IMG/VR virus record: IMGVR_UViG_3300025151_000003 | Location: 1 to 56,268 of that record | DNA length: 56,268 nt | DNA from: a virus | Direction: 5' to 3' (one strand) | In this document: positions 19,351-38,518 of the stretch, in pieces | Position numbering within the stretch: the first letter of the stretch is position 1 | Layout: every line of letters starts with the position of its first letter | Program-made: the position numbers and the translations under genes | The notes under the pieces: generated by a model | Seen by the model: only the letters and a program-made list of their open reading frames with translations | Told to the model about the DNA's origin: nothing | Databases searched by the model: none

Positions 19351-19609
19351 AGAACACTTACAAGAAGTAAAAATGTCTTATTGGAAACACTTCTGGTTTG
19401 CATTAAGTATGATTCCTTATCTATTTTTTGCTATGATATTTTCAATAATACATGCAATAATACCGGGACTTTTTTCAGAAACTACGAGTGCTATTATTGA
19501 TGAGTTAAACTTTAAACTATCTAAAAATAAAATAGCTGATACAGTACCCGGTCAAAAAAGATGGGAGGATAAAGAAGCTGATACAGTGCCTGATAAAAAA
19601 AGTTCTTGA
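19334..19609 (+). CDS. Small membrane protein, DUF6356-like
   Basis: The start at 19334 (ATG inside the last codons of nrdB, 17-base overlap) gives a protein beginning MFGQTKEHLQEVKMSYWKHF, then a hydrophobic hairpin (WFALSMIPYLFFAMIFSIIHAIIPGLF) in residues 21-46 and a charged tail. The 'HLQEV.MSY..H...A' and 'HA..P..F' pattern resembles DUF6356 from memory; that family has no known function. The tail has two copies of ADTVP. Confidence 0.5.
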   Translation: MFGQTKEHLQEVKMSYWKHFWFALSMIPYLFFAMIFSIIHAIIPGLFSETTSAIIDELNFKLSKNKIADTVPGQKRWEDKEADTVPDKKSS

Positions 19610-19634
19610 CAAATGAGTTATAATAGCATATAAT
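19606..19634 (+). promoter_or_regulatory. Perfect-consensus sigma70 promoter for hsp20
   Basis: TTGACA (19606-19611), 17-bp spacer, TATAAT (19629-19634): both hexamers and the spacing match the consensus exactly. It overlaps the upstream stop and faces the Hsp20 gene, 57 bases downstream. This is the best promoter in the window and would be read by host RNA polymerase. Confidence 0.85.
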
Positions 19635-19690: not shown

Positions 19691-20113
19691 ATGTTTCCAT
19701 ATACAGAATCAATGGTAAAAAACTTTTTAGAAAACTCAATAGGATTTGATAGTCTACTATATGGTCTGAAGGAGCAGACAAACCAGTACCCACCTTATGA
19801 TATTGTTAAACACTCTGACACTTCCTATGAGATTACACTAGCACTTGCTGGTCTTTCTAAAGAAGATATTTCTGTAATACAAGAAAAAAATAATGTCACT
19901 ATATCTAATAATAAAAAAGTGGATGATGTAGGTGCTACTGTAGATAAAAAATATATACATAAGGGTATTGCTAAAAGACCATTTACAAAGAAGTTTTCAC
20001 TACTACAAAATGCTATTGTAAGTGATGTATCTTTTGATGATGGCCTGTTAACATTACACATTAACATTGTAGTTCCTGAAGAAGAGAAACCTAAACAAAT
20101 AGAAATACAATAG
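19691..20113 (+). CDS. Small heat-shock protein Hsp20 (alpha-crystallin type)
   Basis: An ATP-independent holdase chaperone. The crystallin domain runs from about residue 35: YPPYDIVKHSDTSYEITLAL, AGLSKEDISV, NNVTISNNK, KYIHKGIAKRPFTKKFSLL, DGLLTLHINIVVPEE; the arginine/phenylalanine strand and the C-terminal QIEIQ (an I-x-I anchor) are present. 140 residues, like cyanophage Hsp20. The gene has a private consensus promoter and terminator plus a TAAAGGAG site, so it is an independently expressed unit, probably protecting virion or host proteins during infection. Confidence 0.9.
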   Translation: MFPYTESMVKNFLENSIGFDSLLYGLKEQTNQYPPYDIVKHSDTSYEITLALAGLSKEDISVIQEKNNVTISNNKKVDDVGATVDKKYIHKGIAKRPFTKKFSLLQNAIVSDVSFDDGLLTLHINIVVPEEEKPKQIEIQ

Positions 20114-20120
20114 AACTATG

Positions 20121-20149
20121 GAGGGGTGGGTAAAACCACCTCTCTTTTT
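20121..20149 (+). terminator. Terminator after hsp20
   Basis: GAGGGGTGG pairs with CCACCTCTC (one G-T pair), followed by TTTTT. It begins seven bases after the hsp20 stop and ends 11 bases before the next gene. Confidence 0.8.
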
Positions 20150-20160
20150 CTGGAGAAGAT

Positions 20161-20931
20161 ATGAAAAAAGGACCAAATACAATTTACATAGGCTATGATC
20201 CTAAAGAACAGGTAGCCTACGATGTTTTAAGATTTACATTAGAACGCACTTCAATAGAGAATATTCGCATAGTGCCTATAAAAAAAGATATCTTAGAACT
20301 TAACGGTATGTATACAAGAACATATACTACTGTTGATGGACAACAGATAGATGATATAGATAAAAAACCTTTTTCTAGTGAGTTTAGTTTTACACGTTTT
20401 CTTGTACCAGCCATGAACATGTATGAAGGTTGGGCATTGTATATGGATTGTGATATGTATCCACGTATAGATTTTAATACTTTATTTGAAGAATACAATT
20501 TAGACTATTATCCTTTATATTGTGTAAAACATGACTATAAACCGGGTGATGGTTTTAAAATGGATGGTAGAGTTCAACAAAACTACCGCAGAAAAAATTG
20601 GTCTAGTTTTATTTTATGGAATTGTAGCCATCCTCTTAATAGAAATTTAACACCAGAGGTTGTTAATACTCAGACAGGTCAGTGGCTTCATGCTTTTGGT
20701 TGGTTGCCAGATAAAGAAGCTGACATTGGTTCTATACATGAAGAATGGAACTGGTTAGACAATCACTCACCTGAAGAAATTGAAGCTAAGAATGTACACT
20801 TTACTACAGGTGGACCTTGGTTTAAAGAATGGAACTCTAAAAGAGAAATTGATGGTAAATATGCAGCGGAGTGGAATTATGATTACACTTACCTTGCAGG
20901 AACAGGACAGATAAAACCTTATGAAATATAA
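20161..20931 (+). CDS. Glycosyltransferase, GT8-like
   Basis: 256 residues. It begins with a nucleotide-sugar-binding-like strand (NTIYIGYDPKEQVAYDVL), then SFTRFLVPAMN and the DxD metal motif YMDCDMYPRID (D96, D98), then HWW-type acceptor features (WLHAFGWLPDKE; NVHFTTGGPWFKEW). The family transfers sugars from UDP/GDP donors. TGGAGAAG precedes the ATG. Its last codons overlap the next, also sugar-related, gene by 11 bases, so the two act together. The substrate is unknown. Confidence 0.75.
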   Translation: MKKGPNTIYIGYDPKEQVAYDVLRFTLERTSIENIRIVPIKKDILELNGMYTRTYTTVDGQQIDDIDKKPFSSEFSFTRFLVPAMNMYEGWALYMDCDMYPRIDFNTLFEEYNLDYYPLYCVKHDYKPGDGFKMDGRVQQNYRRKNWSSFILWNCSHPLNRNLTPEVVNTQTGQWLHAFGWLPDKEADIGSIHEEWNWLDNHSPEEIEAKNVHFTTGGPWFKEWNSKREIDGKYAAEWNYDYTYLAGTGQIKPYEI

Positions 20932-23302
20932 AGTAGTTACATGTTTTGATGAAACATTATTAAAACTTAATGGATCAAAACTAATAGAGCAGTTTGCCTC
21001 AAGCTGGCAACCTAGCATAGAATTTCATTGTTATTATTATAATTTAGATTTATCTAATTATTCTTTACCTAAGAAAAAGAATATTCACTATCATAATCTA
21101 AATGATATAGATGGATTTCCTGAGTTTATGGAGCGCAACAAAACTCATGATGGCACAGAGGGTGGTAGTGTTCAATATAATTCTATCATTGATGTTATAT
21201 CAGAAGGACCAAAAGTATTTGCTATAAGTGAGGAAGCATTTAAAGATAGTAACTCTTGGTTGTTCTGGTTGGATGCTAACTGTTGTACTGTAAGAGATAT
21301 AAGATTAAATAGTTTAAAAACTATCTTTAGTGATGACGCTAATGCATTGTCCCTAGCTTTAGTTGAGCATAGAAACCATTTTGCTGGTTTTAATTTACAA
21401 AGTCAGTCTGTTGTAGAACTTCTTGCAGATATAAAAGGAGCATATATTACAGATAGATTTACAGATTATAGAGAGTGGGGATATAATTTTATATTAGGTT
21501 CAATATTACCTCTATATCAAGCACGAGGTTTAAATTATAAATTATTTACAGAAAATGGTATTAGTGTATTAAATAATTTATTCGTAGATTTACGTGACCC
21601 TGCATCTAGAAAACTTAGAGATGCAAAAGGTAATAGAATAGTTCCTCTATCTGATAAAGAAACATCACCAGATATCTTACCGGGAAGATACAAACAACTT
21701 GCAGATATAGTTAGACACTACAAACCACAGACTATCTTAGAAACAGGAACGTGGAATGGTGGTAGAGCTATAGAGATGTCTCTTGCTGCCTTTGAAAAGT
21801 CAGATAAAGTTCACTACATTGGTTATGATTTATTTGAAGATGCTACACCAGAGATAGATCAAGAAGAGTTTAACTCTAAAGCTCACAATACTTTAGCTGC
21901 TGTTGAAGCTAGACTAACAGAGTTCCAAGAGTTTGTTAAAAAAGAAAGACAAAAAGATTTTAGTTTTGAATTAACTAAGGGTAATGTCAAAGATGCACTC
22001 AATATTAAAGCAGATAATGATATTGATTTTGCTCTCATTGGTAGTGGTAATAGCTTCAATACCGTAGAATATGAATATAATACTTTAAAAAATATACCTG
22101 TTGTTGTTGCAGATCATTACTTTACAAAAGATGAAGCAGAAGAAATACCACCTGATGCCTATCAAGGTGTTAATCAAGTATTTAAATCTGTCCCTACAAA
22201 AGAAGTAAAGTCAGATGAAGTACCAGACGTAGATGGATGGATTACATTTGATGATGCAGCTACTACTAGAAAATATGTATTACCTTCTAGTGATAGAGTT
22301 CTTGGTGGCGGCACTACACACTTAGCTGTATTCTTACATGATCCTGATTTAAAAGATCTTCCAGAAGATGTTAAACGTGTTCCTATCGTAGTTCATCCTA
22401 GAGATTGTGTACCTAAAGATTATATTGTAAGTAATATACAAACCAATATAAAAATGATAGGAGAAGATAACTGGGTATCTAAACACCCTCCTCATAGAGA
22501 AGTAGGTATTGTTGTATCTGCTGGTCCTTACTTAGATTATGTAGCTCTAAAAGAGTTTATGCATACGTATTTAGCAAAAGGTATTAGACCTAAAATACTA
22601 ACTGTTAAACATGCTTATCCTAATCTATTAAAAAATGGTATTATACCGTGGGGATGTATTGTTCTTGATCCTCGTTCAATAGAAGGTAAGAGCACACACA
22701 ATATTGTGCGTAAAGATTTGTTTAAAGATATCAATAAAGAAACTTTATTCTTTGTTGCCTCTATGACAGATCCCTCTGTTACTAAACATATTAAAGATGG
22801 TGACGGTAAAATATGGGGATGGCATGCTTTTACAGACTTCATGAGAAAAGAGCAAGAGCGAGGCACACAGATAGTAAATCAAACTGTGCAGCTTAATGAA
22901 GAGTTAGGTATACCACAAGGTGCTACGTTAATTACAGGTGGTACTTGTGCAGCTATGCGTGGTATTGGCTTAATGCACACGATGGGCTTCAGAGAGATAC
23001 ATCTTTTTGGCTTTGATTGCTGTCGTGAAGAACCAACAGCGGAAGAAAAAACAGAAACTACAGGTGATATAGAAGGTGGTGAAACACCTAAACCTAAATA
23101 TATACAGGTCAATGTAGGAGACGTTACTTATTGGACTACAGGTGAGCTTTTAGCTATGGCTCAAGACTGTGAAAAAGTATTTGATGATCCCGGTCTTGAC
23201 GGTGTATTAGAGTTTCATGGTGAAAATACAATGATATCAGCCTTGTGGGATATTAAACAGAGTAAGGAGAAACGTCCAGCGTTTAAAGATTATTATGCTT
23301 GA
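20921..23302 (+). CDS. Three-domain fusion: glycosyltransferase-like / methyltransferase-like / DUF115-like
   Basis: 793 residues in three readable parts. Residues 1-215 look like a nucleotide-sugar transferase (KVVTCFDETLL, WLFWLDANCC at the DxD position, GYNFILGS). Residues 250-415 hold a Rossmann methyltransferase-like motif (TILETGTWNGGRAIEM, VHYIGYDLFED). Residues 528-760 resemble DUF115/Maf-type motility-associated glycosyltransferases (VGIVVSAGPYLDYVALKEF, ITGGTCAAMRGIGLMHTMGF, IHLFGFDCC). Together they suggest building or modifying a glycan. It overlaps both neighbours (11 and 8 bases). Domain calls are by motif only; the fusion order is unusual. Confidence 0.7.
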   Translation: MKYKVVTCFDETLLKLNGSKLIEQFASSWQPSIEFHCYYYNLDLSNYSLPKKKNIHYHNLNDIDGFPEFMERNKTHDGTEGGSVQYNSIIDVISEGPKVFAISEEAFKDSNSWLFWLDANCCTVRDIRLNSLKTIFSDDANALSLALVEHRNHFAGFNLQSQSVVELLADIKGAYITDRFTDYREWGYNFILGSILPLYQARGLNYKLFTENGISVLNNLFVDLRDPASRKLRDAKGNRIVPLSDKETSPDILPGRYKQLADIVRHYKPQTILETGTWNGGRAIEMSLAAFEKSDKVHYIGYDLFEDATPEIDQEEFNSKAHNTLAAVEARLTEFQEFVKKERQKDFSFELTKGNVKDALNIKADNDIDFALIGSGNSFNTVEYEYNTLKNIPVVVADHYFTKDEAEEIPPDAYQGVNQVFKSVPTKEVKSDEVPDVDGWITFDDAATTRKYVLPSSDRVLGGGTTHLAVFLHDPDLKDLPEDVKRVPIVVHPRDCVPKDYIVSNIQTNIKMIGEDNWVSKHPPHREVGIVVSAGPYLDYVALKEFMHTYLAKGIRPKILTVKHAYPNLLKNGIIPWGCIVLDPRSIEGKSTHNIVRKDLFKDINKETLFFVASMTDPSVTKHIKDGDGKIWGWHAFTDFMRKEQERGTQIVNQTVQLNEELGIPQGATLITGGTCAAMRGIGLMHTMGFREIHLFGFDCCREEPTAEEKTETTGDIEGGETPKPKYIQVNVGDVTYWTTGELLAMAQDCEKVFDDPGLDGVLEFHGENTMISALWDIKQSKEKRPAFKDYYA

Positions 23303-23975
23303 GTATACAGAAGAATATAGTAGAGATAATACATCTCAAAGATATAAAGATCTCTTAAAAGAATATGAGAAGTTACATGCATACAGTGAGGGTATGTTTA
23401 ATGGTAGAAGTTTAATAAGATTTGCTGGACCACTTGAACAAATAATTAACAAACATAAGTGTGAAACACTGCTAGATTATGGTTGTGGTAAAGGACATCC
23501 TTATACAGATAAGTTTCATACAGTTCCTGACTCTGATTTCTTAGATAAACCAATACATGAGTTTTGGGGTATAAAAGACATCACTTTGTATGATCCCGGT
23601 GAAGAAGAACATAGTAAGTTACCAACTGGTGTTTATGATATTGTAATATGCACTGATGTTTTAGAACATGTGCCACATGAAGATCTTACTTGGGTCATTG
23701 AAGAGATATTTAAATACTCTACAAACGTAGTATTTCTTAACATATGTTGTCTACCTGCTATGAAACATTTCCCTAATGGTGAGAATGTTCATGTATCATT
23801 GTACCCTGTTAACGAGTGGCTACAATTCATTGCTAGACTATCTATAGATTATCCATATCTAACTATCTATGTTTACGCAGATGACAAAGATAATGATAAG
23901 TATCGTTTAAATGCTTATAAAATAATACCAAGACCTACAATTATACCACTAAAAACTAAGCCTGAAAAAGAATGA
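23295..23975 (+). CDS. Class I SAM-dependent methyltransferase
   Basis: 226 residues. Motif I is LLDYGCGKGHPYTDKF (about residues 57-72), the acidic loop TLYDPGEEEH follows, and YDIVICTDVLEHVPHEDL (about 115-132) is the post-motif II of small-molecule or sugar methyltransferases. The TATGC-overlapping start and the 4-base overlap (ATGA) with the SET gene place it in the same operon as the glycan enzymes, so a sugar acceptor is the favoured guess. Confidence 0.8.
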   Translation: MLEYTEEYSRDNTSQRYKDLLKEYEKLHAYSEGMFNGRSLIRFAGPLEQIINKHKCETLLDYGCGKGHPYTDKFHTVPDSDFLDKPIHEFWGIKDITLYDPGEEEHSKLPTGVYDIVICTDVLEHVPHEDLTWVIEEIFKYSTNVVFLNICCLPAMKHFPNGENVHVSLYPVNEWLQFIARLSIDYPYLTIYVYADDKDNDKYRLNAYKIIPRPTIIPLKTKPEKE

Positions 23976-24292
23976 CTGTATTAAGATACAATAGATTTTA
24001 TTATGATCCTCTACCTAGTAATGTTAAGATAAAAAAAAGTGATATACACGGATATGGTATCTTTGCAAAAGAAGATATTAAATCTAAAACAGATTTAGGA
24101 TCTACACATATTAAATATCCTATGATTGTAGGCTATGTAAGAACTCCTATAGGTGGTTTTATAAATCACTCAGAAAAACCAAACTGTCATTTAATTATAT
24201 CTCAAGATTGGGATGACTTTATAATTTATAATGTGGTAACACATAAAAAAATATTAAAAGATGAAGAAATACTTTTAGACTATGAAGTATAA
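23972..24292 (+). CDS. SET-domain protein (protein lysine methyltransferase-like)
   Basis: A 106-residue, nearly bare SET domain: IKKSDIHGYGIFAKEDIKS (21-39), then GGFINHSEKPNCHLI (the N-H-S..PN signature of the SAM/lysine channel) and DEEILLDYEV at the end, whose tyrosine is the usual catalytic-channel residue. SET proteins methylate lysines. They are rare in phages; the target could be a phage or host protein. No pre- or post-SET zinc cysteines. It overlaps the methyltransferase gene by 4 bases and precedes the holin. Confidence 0.75.
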   Translation: MTVLRYNRFYYDPLPSNVKIKKSDIHGYGIFAKEDIKSKTDLGSTHIKYPMIVGYVRTPIGGFINHSEKPNCHLIISQDWDDFIIYNVVTHKKILKDEEILLDYEV

Positions 24293-24303: not shown

Positions 24304-24708
24304 ATGTTAGGACTAGCAGATAGTGTTATAGGTGTGGCTGGTAAAGTTCTTGATAAGTTTGTAGAAGATAAAGACCTCAAGACTAAACTAGAGGCTGAAC
24401 TAAAACAACAGATGATTAGCCTTGATCTTGCTCAGACACAAGCAAATATAGAACAAGCTAAACACCCTTCTATCTTTGTAGCTGGAGCTAGACCTGCCAT
24501 CATGTGGATATGTGCTCTAGGTCTTGGTTGGCAGTTTATTCTTGCACCTATATCTTCATGGATTATTATAACTTGGTATCCTACGGTAACATTACCTATG
24601 TTAGAAACAGGAGAACTAACAAGTCTTGTTCTTGCTCTTCTTGGTCTTGGTGGTATGCGTACAGCAGAGAAGTGGAAAGGTGTTCAAAGAGATAATATGA
24701 AACATTGA
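24304..24708 (+). CDS. Holin, 3-TM type (GTA/HP1-like)
   Basis: 134 residues. An amphipathic N-terminus (GVAGKVLDKFVEDKDLKTKL) and a helical linker are followed by the hallmark KHPSIFVAGARPAIMWICAL (about 53-72), then further membrane helices (FILAPISSWIIITWY, LTSLVLALLGLGGMRTAEKW). This matches the Holin_3TMs family, which permeabilises the inner membrane at lysis. It is at the end of the plus arm, while the M15 endolysin is on the opposing arm about 2 kb away. AAGGAG precedes the ATG. Confidence 0.85.
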   Translation: MLGLADSVIGVAGKVLDKFVEDKDLKTKLEAELKQQMISLDLAQTQANIEQAKHPSIFVAGARPAIMWICALGLGWQFILAPISSWIIITWYPTVTLPMLETGELTSLVLALLGLGGMRTAEKWKGVQRDNMKH

Positions 24709-24800
24709 TAATAAAAATAATAGGTGGATCTATATTATTATGGATCTTATATATAATTAGTGTTGGGATTATTCAAACATTTTGTGAGTGTTTAGTTTAA
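24705..24800 (+). CDS. Small single-helix membrane protein (31 aa)
   Basis: A TTG-start frame overlapping the holin stop by four bases (TTGA) and the cupin start by one (TAATG). The peptide (MIIKIIGGSILLWILYIISV...) is one transmembrane helix with a short Cys-containing tail. Tight double overlap supports it, but the TTG start and small size keep it tentative; it could be a holin partner. Confidence 0.4.
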   Translation: MIIKIIGGSILLWILYIISVGIIQTFCECLV

Positions 24801-25150
24801 TGAAAGCAGGAAAAGTTTGGGGTCAGACCTCTACTATATTTCAAAATGGTGTATTTGAATTTCACCATATTATATTTAATAAAGGTAGTAAATGTAGTAA
24901 ACATAAACACAAGTATAAGTGGAATGGTTTCTATGTAACTAAAGGTCAACTTATTATCAGAGTATGGAAGAATGATTATAATCTTGTAGATGAAACTATT
25001 CTAAATAAAGGTGAATGGACAACAGTAAAACCCGGAGAGTATCATCAGTTTGAAGCTACATCAGATGGTGAGGCTCTTGAATTATATTGGGCAGAGTTTG
25101 ATCATAATGATATTGAACGTGAGACAGTAGGAGAATCTAGTGGCTCTTAA
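24800..25150 (+). CDS. Cupin-fold protein
   Basis: Start taken at 24800. The 116-residue protein has a cupin motif 1-like segment (GSKCSKHKHKYKWNGFYVTKG, minus its final residue, His33/35-type metal ligands), a middle ILNKGEWTTVKPGEYHQFEA (motif 2, second histidine) and ends in acidic residues. Small phage cupins of this type are seen beside sugar genes, where some relatives are sugar isomerases/epimerases; that is a weak guess here. It overlaps the small terminase gene by 11 bases. Confidence 0.7.
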   Translation: MKAGKVWGQTSTIFQNGVFEFHHIIFNKGSKCSKHKHKYKWNGFYVTKGQLIIRVWKNDYNLVDETILNKGEWTTVKPGEYHQFEATSDGEALELYWAEFDHNDIERETVGESSGS

Positions 25151-25607
25151 TGAAAAGCAAGAGAAGTTTGCACAGTCCTACATATTACATCGTAATGCTA
25201 CAGAGGCTGCAAAGAACGCTGGTTATGCTCCTGACTCAGCAGCCAATCAAGGCTACCGTCTTATGCAGAATCAAGAGGTTGTTGATAGAGTCCACGAACT
25301 AGAGCAACAGCTTGAAACAGATGTAGATGTTATAGGTGAATTAGAAAAGCAGTATGAGTTTGCTAAAAACAACGGTCACTCAAATAGTGCGCTCAAAGCA
25401 CTAGAATTATTATCTAGAATACGTGGTGCTAATAGTGATGTTAATTCGGGGTTAGATAAAGACACATTAGAAACAGCTATTGTTGGGTGTCTTAATACAT
25501 TAGGGGAAGATAAAGTTATTAATCTATTACAGAAGTGTGACTTTGCAAGTAACATATTTGAAGAGGGGGATGTAGAAGAAGATGCCAAGGAAATGGAAGG
25601 TGTATGA
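25140..25607 (+). CDS. terS: Terminase small subunit-like DNA-packaging protein
   Basis: GTG start with TAGGAGAA upstream. 155 residues: NEKQEKFAQSYILHRNATEA (4-23) and AKNAGYAPDSAANQGYRLMQ are the helix-turn-helix of the Terminase_2 family, then an oligomerisation helix (VVDRVHELEQQLE). The acidic tail (EEGDVEEDAKEMEGV) is compatible with binding TerL. It recognises phage DNA at packaging start. It lies at the end of the plus arm, opposite TerL on the circle. Confidence 0.7.
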   Translation: MALNEKQEKFAQSYILHRNATEAAKNAGYAPDSAANQGYRLMQNQEVVDRVHELEQQLETDVDVIGELEKQYEFAKNNGHSNSALKALELLSRIRGANSDVNSGLDKDTLETAIVGCLNTLGEDKVINLLQKCDFASNIFEEGDVEEDAKEMEGV

Positions 25608-27401: not shown

Positions 27402-30400
27402 TACTCTTCTCCTTGTTTTATTGGAAATAAAGATTGACCTTCAAATTCTTTTCTAACATTTGCTAATGCTTGAAATATTTTATCAGTAGGTATATTTTTT
27501 CTTGTTAGACTTTCAATAAATGCAGTGTTTGTTTCTGGATAATCAGGAATAAAAGTACCACCTTGTAAATTTTTAATACTTTCTTGAGTCACATATAATT
27601 CAATAGGTAACATTCGTGGAGAAAATACTTTATTATATAACATTAATTCTTCAATAATTTTATCTTTTCCAAATGTTATTAGATTATCTTCTTCTGTTTT
27701 TGTCTTACCATCAGAATCTGTATATTGAAATTGAGAATAAATATGAGCCTTCTCAGCTAATTCTTTCATTTTATCTAATTTATACTTCTGCAATTTTCTA
27801 TATTCATTTACAATTTTATTTTGTAAATCTTCATTATAAGGTTGTGGTTTAATACTATCTATCTCTTTCTTAAAATCACTTACTGTGTCATCTATATTTC
27901 TAATTGTTTTAAACATATCAGATGCAACTGTTTTACCATAGTCATATGTTCTTGGTTTCATTCCTGTATATGCCCAAAACTCTATATCTCCAGAGTCAAC
28001 AGGATAACCATAAGAATTTATAGCAGTTTTATTTACAATATCAGCAATTTCTTCAGCATCAAGAGCATCTAAATAATCTCTTGTTTTTTTAATACCATCT
28101 GGAGCAATCTTCTCAACAACATTTAAAAGTCCTGTAGAAATTTTTTCCCAAATATTATCTGTATTTTTATATAAAAAGGAAGGATCACCATTTAAATTTT
28201 TATCAAATACTGATTGTATTATAGCACCTGTAAGAAATGTAGGAGAAGTAAATTGTGATGGCCCACTATTCCAAATAGATTGTAATTTAGTAGATAGTTC
28301 TACGTCTGGCATTTCTTTACCATCTAAAGCTAATGCAGTAATTTCTTTTATAAGATTTTTAACAAGGGTTGGTTGATCAAACAAAGTACTTGCTATATAT
28401 TTACCAATAATACGACCATCAGCTTGCTGTTGTGGAGCTTGCATATGTATTCGTTTATAATCAGAATTAAATCCTCTACCAGCTAAATCTAAAGCTCTTG
28501 TATTTTCTTTTGGAACACCTACAGTTTCTCCAAAGTCATTTTCTAATTTACTATTTTTATAATCTATTGCTACATCTATACCTTTTGTACTTCCTAGTAA
28601 TGATCCAATTCCAACTAAACCTGTAGCTGCTAAATAAGGATTAACTCTTCTATTACCAAACTGATCTGGAATTATACCCATACCTTGCAACATATTCTTA
28701 GAATATATTCTAGCCATATTAGGATAAACACGTATTGTTTCTGCTGGAAATAAAACAAAGTTTCCTATAAATGGAGTTCTTGAAATACCTTTAACTGTTT
28801 GGCCTACTTCACCATAGTTATACATTTTAGCTTTTACTTCATCTGAAGCATTTTTAAAAACAAAATCATTATATTTTTTTCTTGCTTCAGATGCAGAAAG
28901 ATTTTTATAATCCTCTTGTTGTTTTACATATTTAAAAGGATAAGCTCTTTTAGTTCTTGCCATTTCAGATTGATGTGCTAAAGTTTTAAAATAATTATCA
29001 ATAGAACCATAAGCTTCTCCTAAAGTTTGAGAACCTTTATTTATTCTTACAGCCGCTCTATCTGCCATCGTTCCTAATTTTCTAGGATCTTCGCTTAGTC
29101 TTACAAGATCCATTGTGTTTTCAGCTATAGGATCTGTATCTAATACACCCTGCTCTCTTAACTTAGCAAAGTAATTTAAAGTTTTACTATCTCTATTTTT
29201 TAAACCTTGAAATAATCTTACTGTAGAACCAATCGCTGCTTTATACATAGCAGGTTCAAATACGTATGCATTTGCAACCATACTTTGTATACCCCCTAAT
29301 GTATTAATTAGATAAGCACCATGATCTAAAACAGTTTGACTCATTTGCCCTATACCAGTCAACTTTCTAAACATTTCAAATAAATAGTTGCTAGTATTAA
29401 ATGCTTGAGAATCTAAAGCATTAATAATAGAATCTCCAAATTCTTTAGACATAGCTAATTTATCTAATTCACTAACACGATTTTGTCCACCTAAAGAACC
29501 TAGTACTCTCTTTTCAATTTGTTTAAAAGCATTAGGCATTCCTTTAATATCATTATAAGAAGCAAATGTTTGTAATCTATCTCTTTCTTCTCTAGATCCA
29601 CCTTTTGTAATACGAGCTTGTCTTGCAAAGTTTCTATTTAATAAAGATTCAAATAGACCTCCCATATTAAATTCTTTATCTAAATTATTTTTAGTAAAAG
29701 TTTTTAAATCTGAAACTAAATCTAAAGCTCCCATAACTCTGCTTTGATTTACTAAAGATGTTTCTAATCTAGATAAATAGTTAATATCTTCTTTAAATAA
29801 ATTTCTTAAAGCAGGAGATAAATCTTTTCTACCACGTAAAACTTTTTCACCAAGACCTGCTATTCCTTTAGTGTTACCTATAGTATCAAATAGTTCAGAC
29901 ACTGAAAAATCACCTGTTCTTTTTCTATTAAGATGAGCAATAGCATCTCTTACTATTCCATCTATCTGAGCTTTCTGATCGCTATCTAAATTTTCATAAC
30001 GTCTTTTAAATATAGACTGAGAAAAGTCTTGTCTTGAATTATCTACAGCCACTCTTGTTTCAGTAGTGACTTCATCTCCTTTTAAGTATTTTTGAATTTC
30101 TTTTAAATATTTTGGGTTATCAACAGCAAGGAAAGATCGTGTTAAATATATTTCACCATCTTGTTTAAAACCAAAACCTAGTTGTCCCTTACCACTCAAA
30201 CCTAATTGATCATTAATATTCTTTTCATTTGCAAATACAAGACTATTCATTTCATCTATGTCATCTACTATTGTAGCAGGTAATTTAGCTGCTGAATTAT
30301 CAACTTCGTCTAGCATAGTTCTATGTAAAGAAGGTAAAGTATAATCTGAACTTAGATTTTGAGATACTTTATTAAAAGCTGCTTTACCAAGAGGTGTGTC

Positions 30401-37333: not shown

Positions 37334-38518
37334 TTAAGTCTTTATAATATAAGTTAATATAAGTGTAGGCTGTACGTTATTATGTGCTGAACCACTACCA
37401 GTAGTATTAATAAGATTTTGATTACCTCCTGAACTTGTTCTATATGTTTGAGTACCACCAGCATGAGAGCCATCAGTTTGTGTATTAACTATATTAAATC
37501 TATCACCACTATCATCACCACTACTTGCTGGATTAAGAGCTTGGTGAGTATGTGAAGCAAGTTGTGCTTCAGTTAGTGTATGTGTTTCTAAACCACCAGC
37601 AGCACCAAGAGTATCACCATCAACACCACCTGTTTGTCCAGTTAATCTATTTTGACTTGACCCACCCATATCATCTTTACCAGCAACAACACGACCACGT
37701 AAGTCAGGTAATGCAAAAGTACTACCTGCTGAACCACCATACGTAGTACCAATAACAGATTCTAAAGCAGGGTAATCTGATTTGTTCAATGTTTGTCCAA
37801 AACAAAATAAAAATCCAGTTGGAGCAACTGTGCCAGCAAAGGGAATAACTGCACCTGTAGGCATAGCTACAATCCCAGTTAGATTAGAACCATCTCCAAA
37901 ATATGCTGATGCACATACTTTAGAACTTACAAATACATTTCCTTTAACAGTTACATCAGATAAAAATGTTGCATTACCTGCTACACTTAACGTAGAAGCA
38001 AGACTAACTGCACCTGCAACTGTTACTGTACTACTAAAATTAGCAGCACCTCCTACATCTAAAGTTCCTCCAACAGTTAAAGAACTAAATTCTGATGGAG
38101 CAACATTAAAGACATTTGTTCCATCAGTTATTACATGTTGATTTGTAGCAGGAGATATGGTTACACCAGTTTGTCCAGCTACCTTTAATATAACATCTGC
38201 ACCAGCAGAAGCGTATGATACAACATTACGTACTACATAACTTTTAGAATTAGATGGTATAAGAATATTAATAGCACTATGAGTTCCACCTACACTACCT
38301 TGAATTTCAAGAAAAGCAGAACGAGCCTGATCACCACTACCTTGATTTTCAGTTAATGTAACATTAGCAGTAGTTCCTACTGTTATAGTTGTATAACCTG
38401 CTACAGCATCATCAACAAGACTAATAACACCATCGTTAAGAACCTGTCCCCAACTATTAGGATTGTCTCCATCACCTTGTTTATTAAGTCTAAGGTTAGT
38501 AGTAAAAGTACTAGACAT
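37334..38518 (-). CDS. Tail fibre with phage tail-collar domain
   Basis: 394 residues. The N-terminus (FTTNLRLNKQGDGDNPNSWG) is a common short-fibre attachment module; a brief hexapeptide-repeat stretch follows (about 145-200); then SKVCASAYFGDGSNLTGI, the module shared with the long fibre; then the collar domain (GAVIPFAGTVAPTGFLFCFG, YPALESVIGTTYGG, FALPDLRGRVVAG) and a C-terminal HNVQP-type end (HNNVQPTLILTYIIKT). Such proteins bind or present receptor-binding tips. It starts two bases before the stopper-like gene. Confidence 0.85.
   Translation of the reverse strand: MSSTFTTNLRLNKQGDGDNPNSWGQVLNDGVISLVDDAVAGYTTITVGTTANVTLTENQGSGDQARSAFLEIQGSVGGTHSAINILIPSNSKSYVVRNVVSYASAGADVILKVAGQTGVTISPATNQHVITDGTNVFNVAPSEFSSLTVGGTLDVGGAANFSSTVTVAGAVSLASTLSVAGNATFLSDVTVKGNVFVSSKVCASAYFGDGSNLTGIVAMPTGAVIPFAGTVAPTGFLFCFGQTLNKSDYPALESVIGTTYGGSAGSTFALPDLRGRVVAGKDDMGGSSQNRLTGQTGGVDGDTLGAAGGLETHTLTEAQLASHTHQALNPASSGDDSGDRFNIVNTQTDGSHAGGTQTYRTSSGGNQNLINTTGSGSAHNNVQPTLILTYIIKT

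Follow-up and report, generated by a model that had tools for sequence, protein, structure and literature searches.

Several described systems resemble parts of the locus analyzed here, which lies in a virus contig of 56,268 bases (IMG/VR record IMGVR_UViG_3300025151_000003; the whole contig is referred to as the window). The GT8/GT24 enzymes, represented by LgtC, GlyE and the catalytic domain of UGGT, share the GT-A fold and an invariant DxD motif with the product of the first gene, although the latter reaches the GT8 family (PF01501) only via its homologue in Pelagibacter phage Mosig. The Maf/PseD flagellin glycosyltransferases (PF01973; PDB 5mu5) resemble the third domain of the second gene product, a fusion protein, both by a profile match above cut-off and as its top fold match. 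Unlike the Maf/PseD systems, however, the locus is devoid of nonulosonic acid genes and of flagellin, and the match of domain 3 to the PseD subfamily (NF050051), a weak flagellin-modification match, falls far under the cut-off (17.6 versus 670 bits); moreover, to our knowledge, no Maf protein carries an N-terminal GT-A domain and a SAM methyltransferase, as this fusion does.

Among phages, the Caulobacter Bertelyvirus phages, Mosig, Podoviridae ctDrO704 and virus S20 have homologous glycosyltransferase (GT) and/or methyltransferase (MT) genes in adjacent positions, with MptE-like or domain-1-like proteins nearby. In Caulobacter phage CcrSC, the genes for a tail protein and a lysozyme flank a run that encodes an MptE-like protein, whose match is below cut-off, together with a GT9-like protein, a GT8-like homologue and an MT homologue; ctDrO704 carries MT and GT near a capsid gene; S20 has an MptE-like protein and an MT near portal and protease; and Mosig combines a homologue of the first domain of the fusion with a GT. 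An MT, a GT and a GT29-like protein are also found in Stenotrophomonas phage DLP_6. In contrast to the present locus, the clusters of the Bertelyvirus phages, Mosig, ctDrO704 and S20 consist of separate genes, lack the three-domain fusion and belong to other phage backgrounds: the idea of such a cluster is common to other phages, the fusion is not. The sole full-length homologue of the fusion in BFVD, in structure as well as in sequence, is A0A6J7X5Q0 from an uncultured member of the Caudovirales (26% identity, E = 6e-53), which is annotated as 'Methyltransferase domain containing protein' with no named function and is shorter (714 versus 793 residues). The HTVC023P-type pelagiphages and the CRP-901-type roseophages, which are also marine and podovirus-like, have portals 40–42% identical to the podovirus-like portal of the window, and tblastn finds no match to the fusion in them. 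No description of the three-domain fusion was found in the literature searched.

Besides the portal, the record encodes a pol I-type polymerase, a primase/helicase, a class I RNR, SU10-type adaptors and a tail collar protein (37334–38518). A large terminase was not found in the 56,268 bases, so the record probably lacks one end. A 413-residue ORF at the end of the contig (positions 54768–56009) has no PHROG match. The cluster itself comprises four ORFs, all on the + strand, which encode a GT, the fusion, a stand-alone MT and a SET-domain protein, and which overlap by 11, 8 and 4 nt, respectively. The first-pass annotation of this DNA had proposed that these four proteins are translated from overlapping frames between positions 20161 and 24292, and both the arrangement and the coordinates hold. 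Comparison with three relatives gave dN/dS values of 0.03–0.29 in each ORF and domain tested; this purifying selection indicates that all four ORFs are real coding genes.

The first gene (20161–20931, +, 256 residues; phrog_28018, E = 1.3e-40) encodes a GT8/GT24-like GT-A glycosyltransferase. A structure search with its product returned GlyE (E = 3e-8), LgtC (E = 2e-7) and UGGT, and the DxD motif, in the form MDCDM, is invariant in the 24 rows of the alignment, so that the GT-A fold and the DxD are found together. The motif is kept in all clade-A rows, the clade to which the window belongs, and at every clade-B or clade-S locus where the pattern was found. There is no direct match to PF01501, but the homologue Mosig_00188 scores above the cut-off of this family (30.9 bits). 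The GT8-like assignment of the first-pass annotation is thus borne out by fold and by homology.

The second gene (20921–23302, +) encodes 793 residues, and we conclude that it is a genuine three-domain fusion composed of a GT-A-like domain, a class I MT and an MptE/Maf-like (DUF115) domain. An artefactual fusion of frames is rejected: in each of 31 relatives sampled, the frame is free of stop codons. An AlphaFold model of the fusion built from 32 relatives has a pLDDT of 75.8 and a pTM of 0.50, values that are moderate. Its top fold match in the PDB is the Maf glycosyltransferase 5mu5, and further matches include GlyE, SAM methyltransferases (Rv0187, TrmR), alpha-1,3-galactosyltransferases and M. 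jannaschii MptE (HPPK); since the fold search gives no matched residues, these matches were assigned to domains from the Pfam placement. Altogether, PF01973, the fold matches and homology to Mosig_00189 agree with the order of glycosyltransferase-like, methyltransferase-like and DUF115-like parts proposed from the translation. In searches against the PDB with phmmer and hmmsearch, domain 1 found nothing and domains 2 and 3 noise only; for the locus, NCBIfam returned no family above cut-off and PADLOC called no defense system.

Domain 3 (residues 505–702; 22433–23026, +) matches PF01973, the MptE-like family, with an E-value of 1.1e-11 (45.2 bits versus a cut-off of 34.6; 48.5 bits in the relative L100) and displays the motifs SAGPYLDY and GGTCAAM...FGFD. 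Domain 2 (about residues 250–470; 21668–22330, +) is a class I SAM methyltransferase of the TylF/Methyltransf_24 type, the Methyltransf_24 match at residues 273–390 lying below the cut-off (E = 0.0095, 17.2 versus 26.3 bits). It keeps the SAM-binding motif I (E-T-G-T-W-N-G-G in the window, E-x-G-T-W-N-x-G-R-A in all rows). O-methyltransferases usually carry a DG(D)H metal-site motif; in its place, nearly all rows of domain 2 have GSGNS or GGGNS. With these metal-binding residues replaced and with the DxD of domain 1 lost, domain 2 and/or domain 1 may be non-catalytic.

Domain 1 (residues 1–232; 20921–21616, +) has no match in the Pfam library. It is GT-A-like by its fold neighbors, by the DAD motif that sister sequences carry and by its homology to Mosig_00189. 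The latter, found by the domain-1 profile with an E-value of 8e-11, is a free-standing protein of Pelagibacter phage Mosig that bears a DAD motif and is encoded immediately upstream of the GT homologue. The DxD expected of a metal-dependent GT-A enzyme is absent from domain 1 in all clade-A rows, where the site is WLDAN in the window and W-D/E-P-x in the other members. Clade S (L084, L086 and L099) has NTN at this site, and the sister group (L100–L136 except L135) has DAD, DID or DVD. On the tree of the other two domains of the fusion, clade A stands on one side of a branch with a support of 100/100, while clade S falls among the DxD-bearing sequences. The DAD of Mosig suggests that the DxD is ancestral in domain 1; if so, the motif has changed at least twice, because clade S nests among DxD-bearers, apart from clade A. 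Relaxed selection on domain 1 after loss of the motif can be rejected, as the ratio of domain-1 to domain-3 distances stands at about 2.2 whether or not the DxD is present, and the dN/dS of domain 1, determined within the clade of the window, is 0.07–0.11.

The third gene (23295–23975, +) encodes a stand-alone class I methyltransferase of 226 residues, which matches Methyltransf_23 (PF13489) above cut-off as well as phrog_24759, and whose homologues adjoin GT homologues in other phages. The fourth (23972–24292, +) encodes a minimal SET-domain protein of 106 residues, with a PF00856 score of 39.5 bits (cut-off 22.4; E = 8.1e-10) and the NHS..PNC motif present as GGFINHSEKPNC. Both had been called a second methyltransferase and a SET protein, respectively, from the sequence alone, and the family matches agree. 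Lone SET homologues occur in Pelagibacter phage Kolga, in cyanophages P-RSM6 and P-SSM7 and in Rhodoferax phage P26218.

A scan of IMG/VR yielded 469 stretches encoding relatives of the fusion, 80 of which were kept, and a second scan with a query sequence 46% identical yielded 69 loci. Together with a contig from a Sneathiella MAG, 150 loci were counted, some of them partial, with L084 and L085 representing one contig. The GT lies upstream of the fusion at all 131 loci with enough flank and the MT downstream at all 114, always in the same order, the 11-nt GT/fusion overlap being the commonest junction (68 loci); note that gene order alone is weak evidence because all loci come from one syntenic phage lineage. 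Several neighbors vary, with HSP20 present at 99/125 loci with flank, holin at 71/88 and SET at 9/88, while the terminase small subunit (TerS) is nearly constant (87/88); the GT–fusion–MT trio stays together better than most neighboring genes. SET is not part of the recurring set: the nine positive loci, among the 88 with more than 2.5 kb downstream, all belong to the closest clade. The recurring core therefore consists of three genes, with SET as an accessory, and the four-gene system put forward in the first-pass annotation stands for the GT, the fusion and the MT but not for SET. The domain models agree with the folds that had been suggested and the GT–fusion–MT set does recur, in uncultured marine relatives. 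The fusion is present in no deposited phage, neither the whole protein nor its N-terminal plus MT part nor its MptE part giving a tblastn match in 50,697 deposited phage records. The carriers of the trio are marine phages, podovirus-like in type, that form an uncultured and widespread group.

In bacterial genomes, the fusion has a single match, contig PAKP01000072.1 (L084), which is filed under the Sneathiella MAG and has the same gene order. That the fusion is a bacterial host gene is rejected, this sole match being a phage contig binned into the MAG. The same contig is present in IMG/VR as L085, with a fusion 100% identical; the Sneathiella MAG thus contains viral sequence.

The trio is preceded by a neighbor outside the core, an HSP20 small heat-shock protein gene (19691–20113, +; PF00011, E = 9.4e-14), and followed by two conserved neighbors, a holin gene (GTA_holin_3TM; 24304–24708, +) and that of TerS (25140–25607, +; phrog_51, E = 2.4e-18). 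In the clade of the window, a cupin protein is encoded between holin and TerS (24788–25150); in the L084 group, a similar cupin is instead encoded on the upstream side of HSP20, indicating that the cupin has moved. Upstream of the HSP20 gene is a perfect sigma-70 consensus, TTGACA-17-TATAAT (19606–19634, +; 12/12 match), which is likely a promoter feeding the region. Perfect TTGACA-16/18-TATAAT sites precede the cluster in most of the clade-A relatives examined, and in L055 a perfect consensus stands directly before the GT, at 59 nt. As a class, promoter matches are not above shuffles (56 versus 47), which leaves the 12/12 site, with its conserved position, as the only meaningful one. Between HSP20 and the GT lies a terminator-like hairpin (20120–20145, +; 10 pairs, 6 of them GC), which may let HSP20 be expressed above the trio. 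Hairpins of differing sequence occupy the same position in many, but not all, relatives. Between the hairpins of the window and of L006, paired changes (G–C to A–T) are seen on both arms.

What might the trio do? We give an even chance to the proposal that it forms one co-translated glycan-decoration module of marine podovirus-like phages, combining sugar transfer and methylation, and directed at a virion protein or a surface glycan. From what is observed (the order and overlaps of the genes, their domain families and motif states, the constraint and the recurrence), we infer catalysis, step order, donors and acceptor, and propose that the GT8-like enzyme would transfer a sugar from a host nucleotide-sugar and that the fusion and the separate MT would extend and methylate the resulting glycan. 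Domain 3 would act as the glycosyltransferase linking an activated sugar with its acceptor. Methylation of the sugar would fall to domain 2 and to the second MT, and domain 1, devoid of DxD in this clade, would be a metal-independent transferase or else a module that binds the acceptor or the sugar. CTP_transf_3, the CMP-sugar synthetase family, was detected in none of 13 large records, which may be incomplete at their ends, while the controls were positive. The lack of any gene found in these phages for making nucleotide-sugars counts against the proposal, since the host must then supply the donors. The most likely acceptor is a virion protein, followed by a host surface glycan. A virion protein is favored because of the Maf-like domain and because related clusters elsewhere have virion genes as neighbors; against decoration of the virion counts the fact that the cluster here adjoins holin and TerS, not virion genes. 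A more specific version, to which we attach a rather low probability, is a phage protein O-glycosylation machine in which a Maf-like transferase is fused to an MT and to domain 1, the GT8-like enzyme performs the first transfer, domain 1, whose metal motif was lost twice but which is constrained in the clade of the window, reads the acceptor, and the phage's own virion proteins end up carrying a methylated sugar.

Alternatively, the module could alter a glycan of the host envelope, LPS or capsule, and for instance block superinfection or the sticking of virions to debris. The fold of the GT is that of LgtC/WbbM-type GT8 enzymes, which act on LPS and O-antigen, and the cluster both follows a strong consensus promoter of the host type and adjoins a holin; yet the set encodes neither a membrane segment nor a flippase or polymerase, Maf-like enzymes have proteins as their targets, and related clusters elsewhere often adjoin virion genes, so that we see this as a possible but less likely role. 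Hypermodification of phage DNA bases by glycosylation and methylation, as a protection against restriction, would fit the joint presence of GT and MT genes, phage DNA glycosylation being a known theme, and DNA had been named among the possible targets on first inspection. The 13 large records disfavor it: thymidylate synthase/hydroxymethylase (PF00303) is absent from all of them, with positive controls, a C5 DNA methylase is encoded in one only (G011, the record of L139, positions 29402–30241), and Tet/JBP is absent from all, a weak negative, as this search had no positive control. Given the absence of a base-hydroxymethylating enzyme of the thymidylate synthase type from these records, and with a GT whose fold is of the LgtC/GlyE/UGGT type, phage DNA is a very unlikely target. 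Least probable of all, to our mind, is that domain 3 works as a genuine pyrophosphokinase of the MptE type, with the fusion producing a pterin or some other small molecule that resembles a cofactor. In favor of this are the name of the Pfam family, which comes from MptE, and the appearance of the M. jannaschii HPPK in the fold search, but Maf 5mu5 comes first by fold, the constant partners are glycosyltransferases and sugar-type methyltransferases, and the set holds no pterin gene.

The glycosylation of phage virions and surfaces is under-studied, chiefly in marine phages without isolates. The trio is compact, widely recurring and clearly bounded, and the loss of a catalytic motif in two of its branches yields a definite prediction as to which domain works. 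If virions are decorated by this glycan module, then these phages would use a Maf-like enzyme away from flagella, and the decoration would bear on adsorption and on escape from host receptors or defenses.
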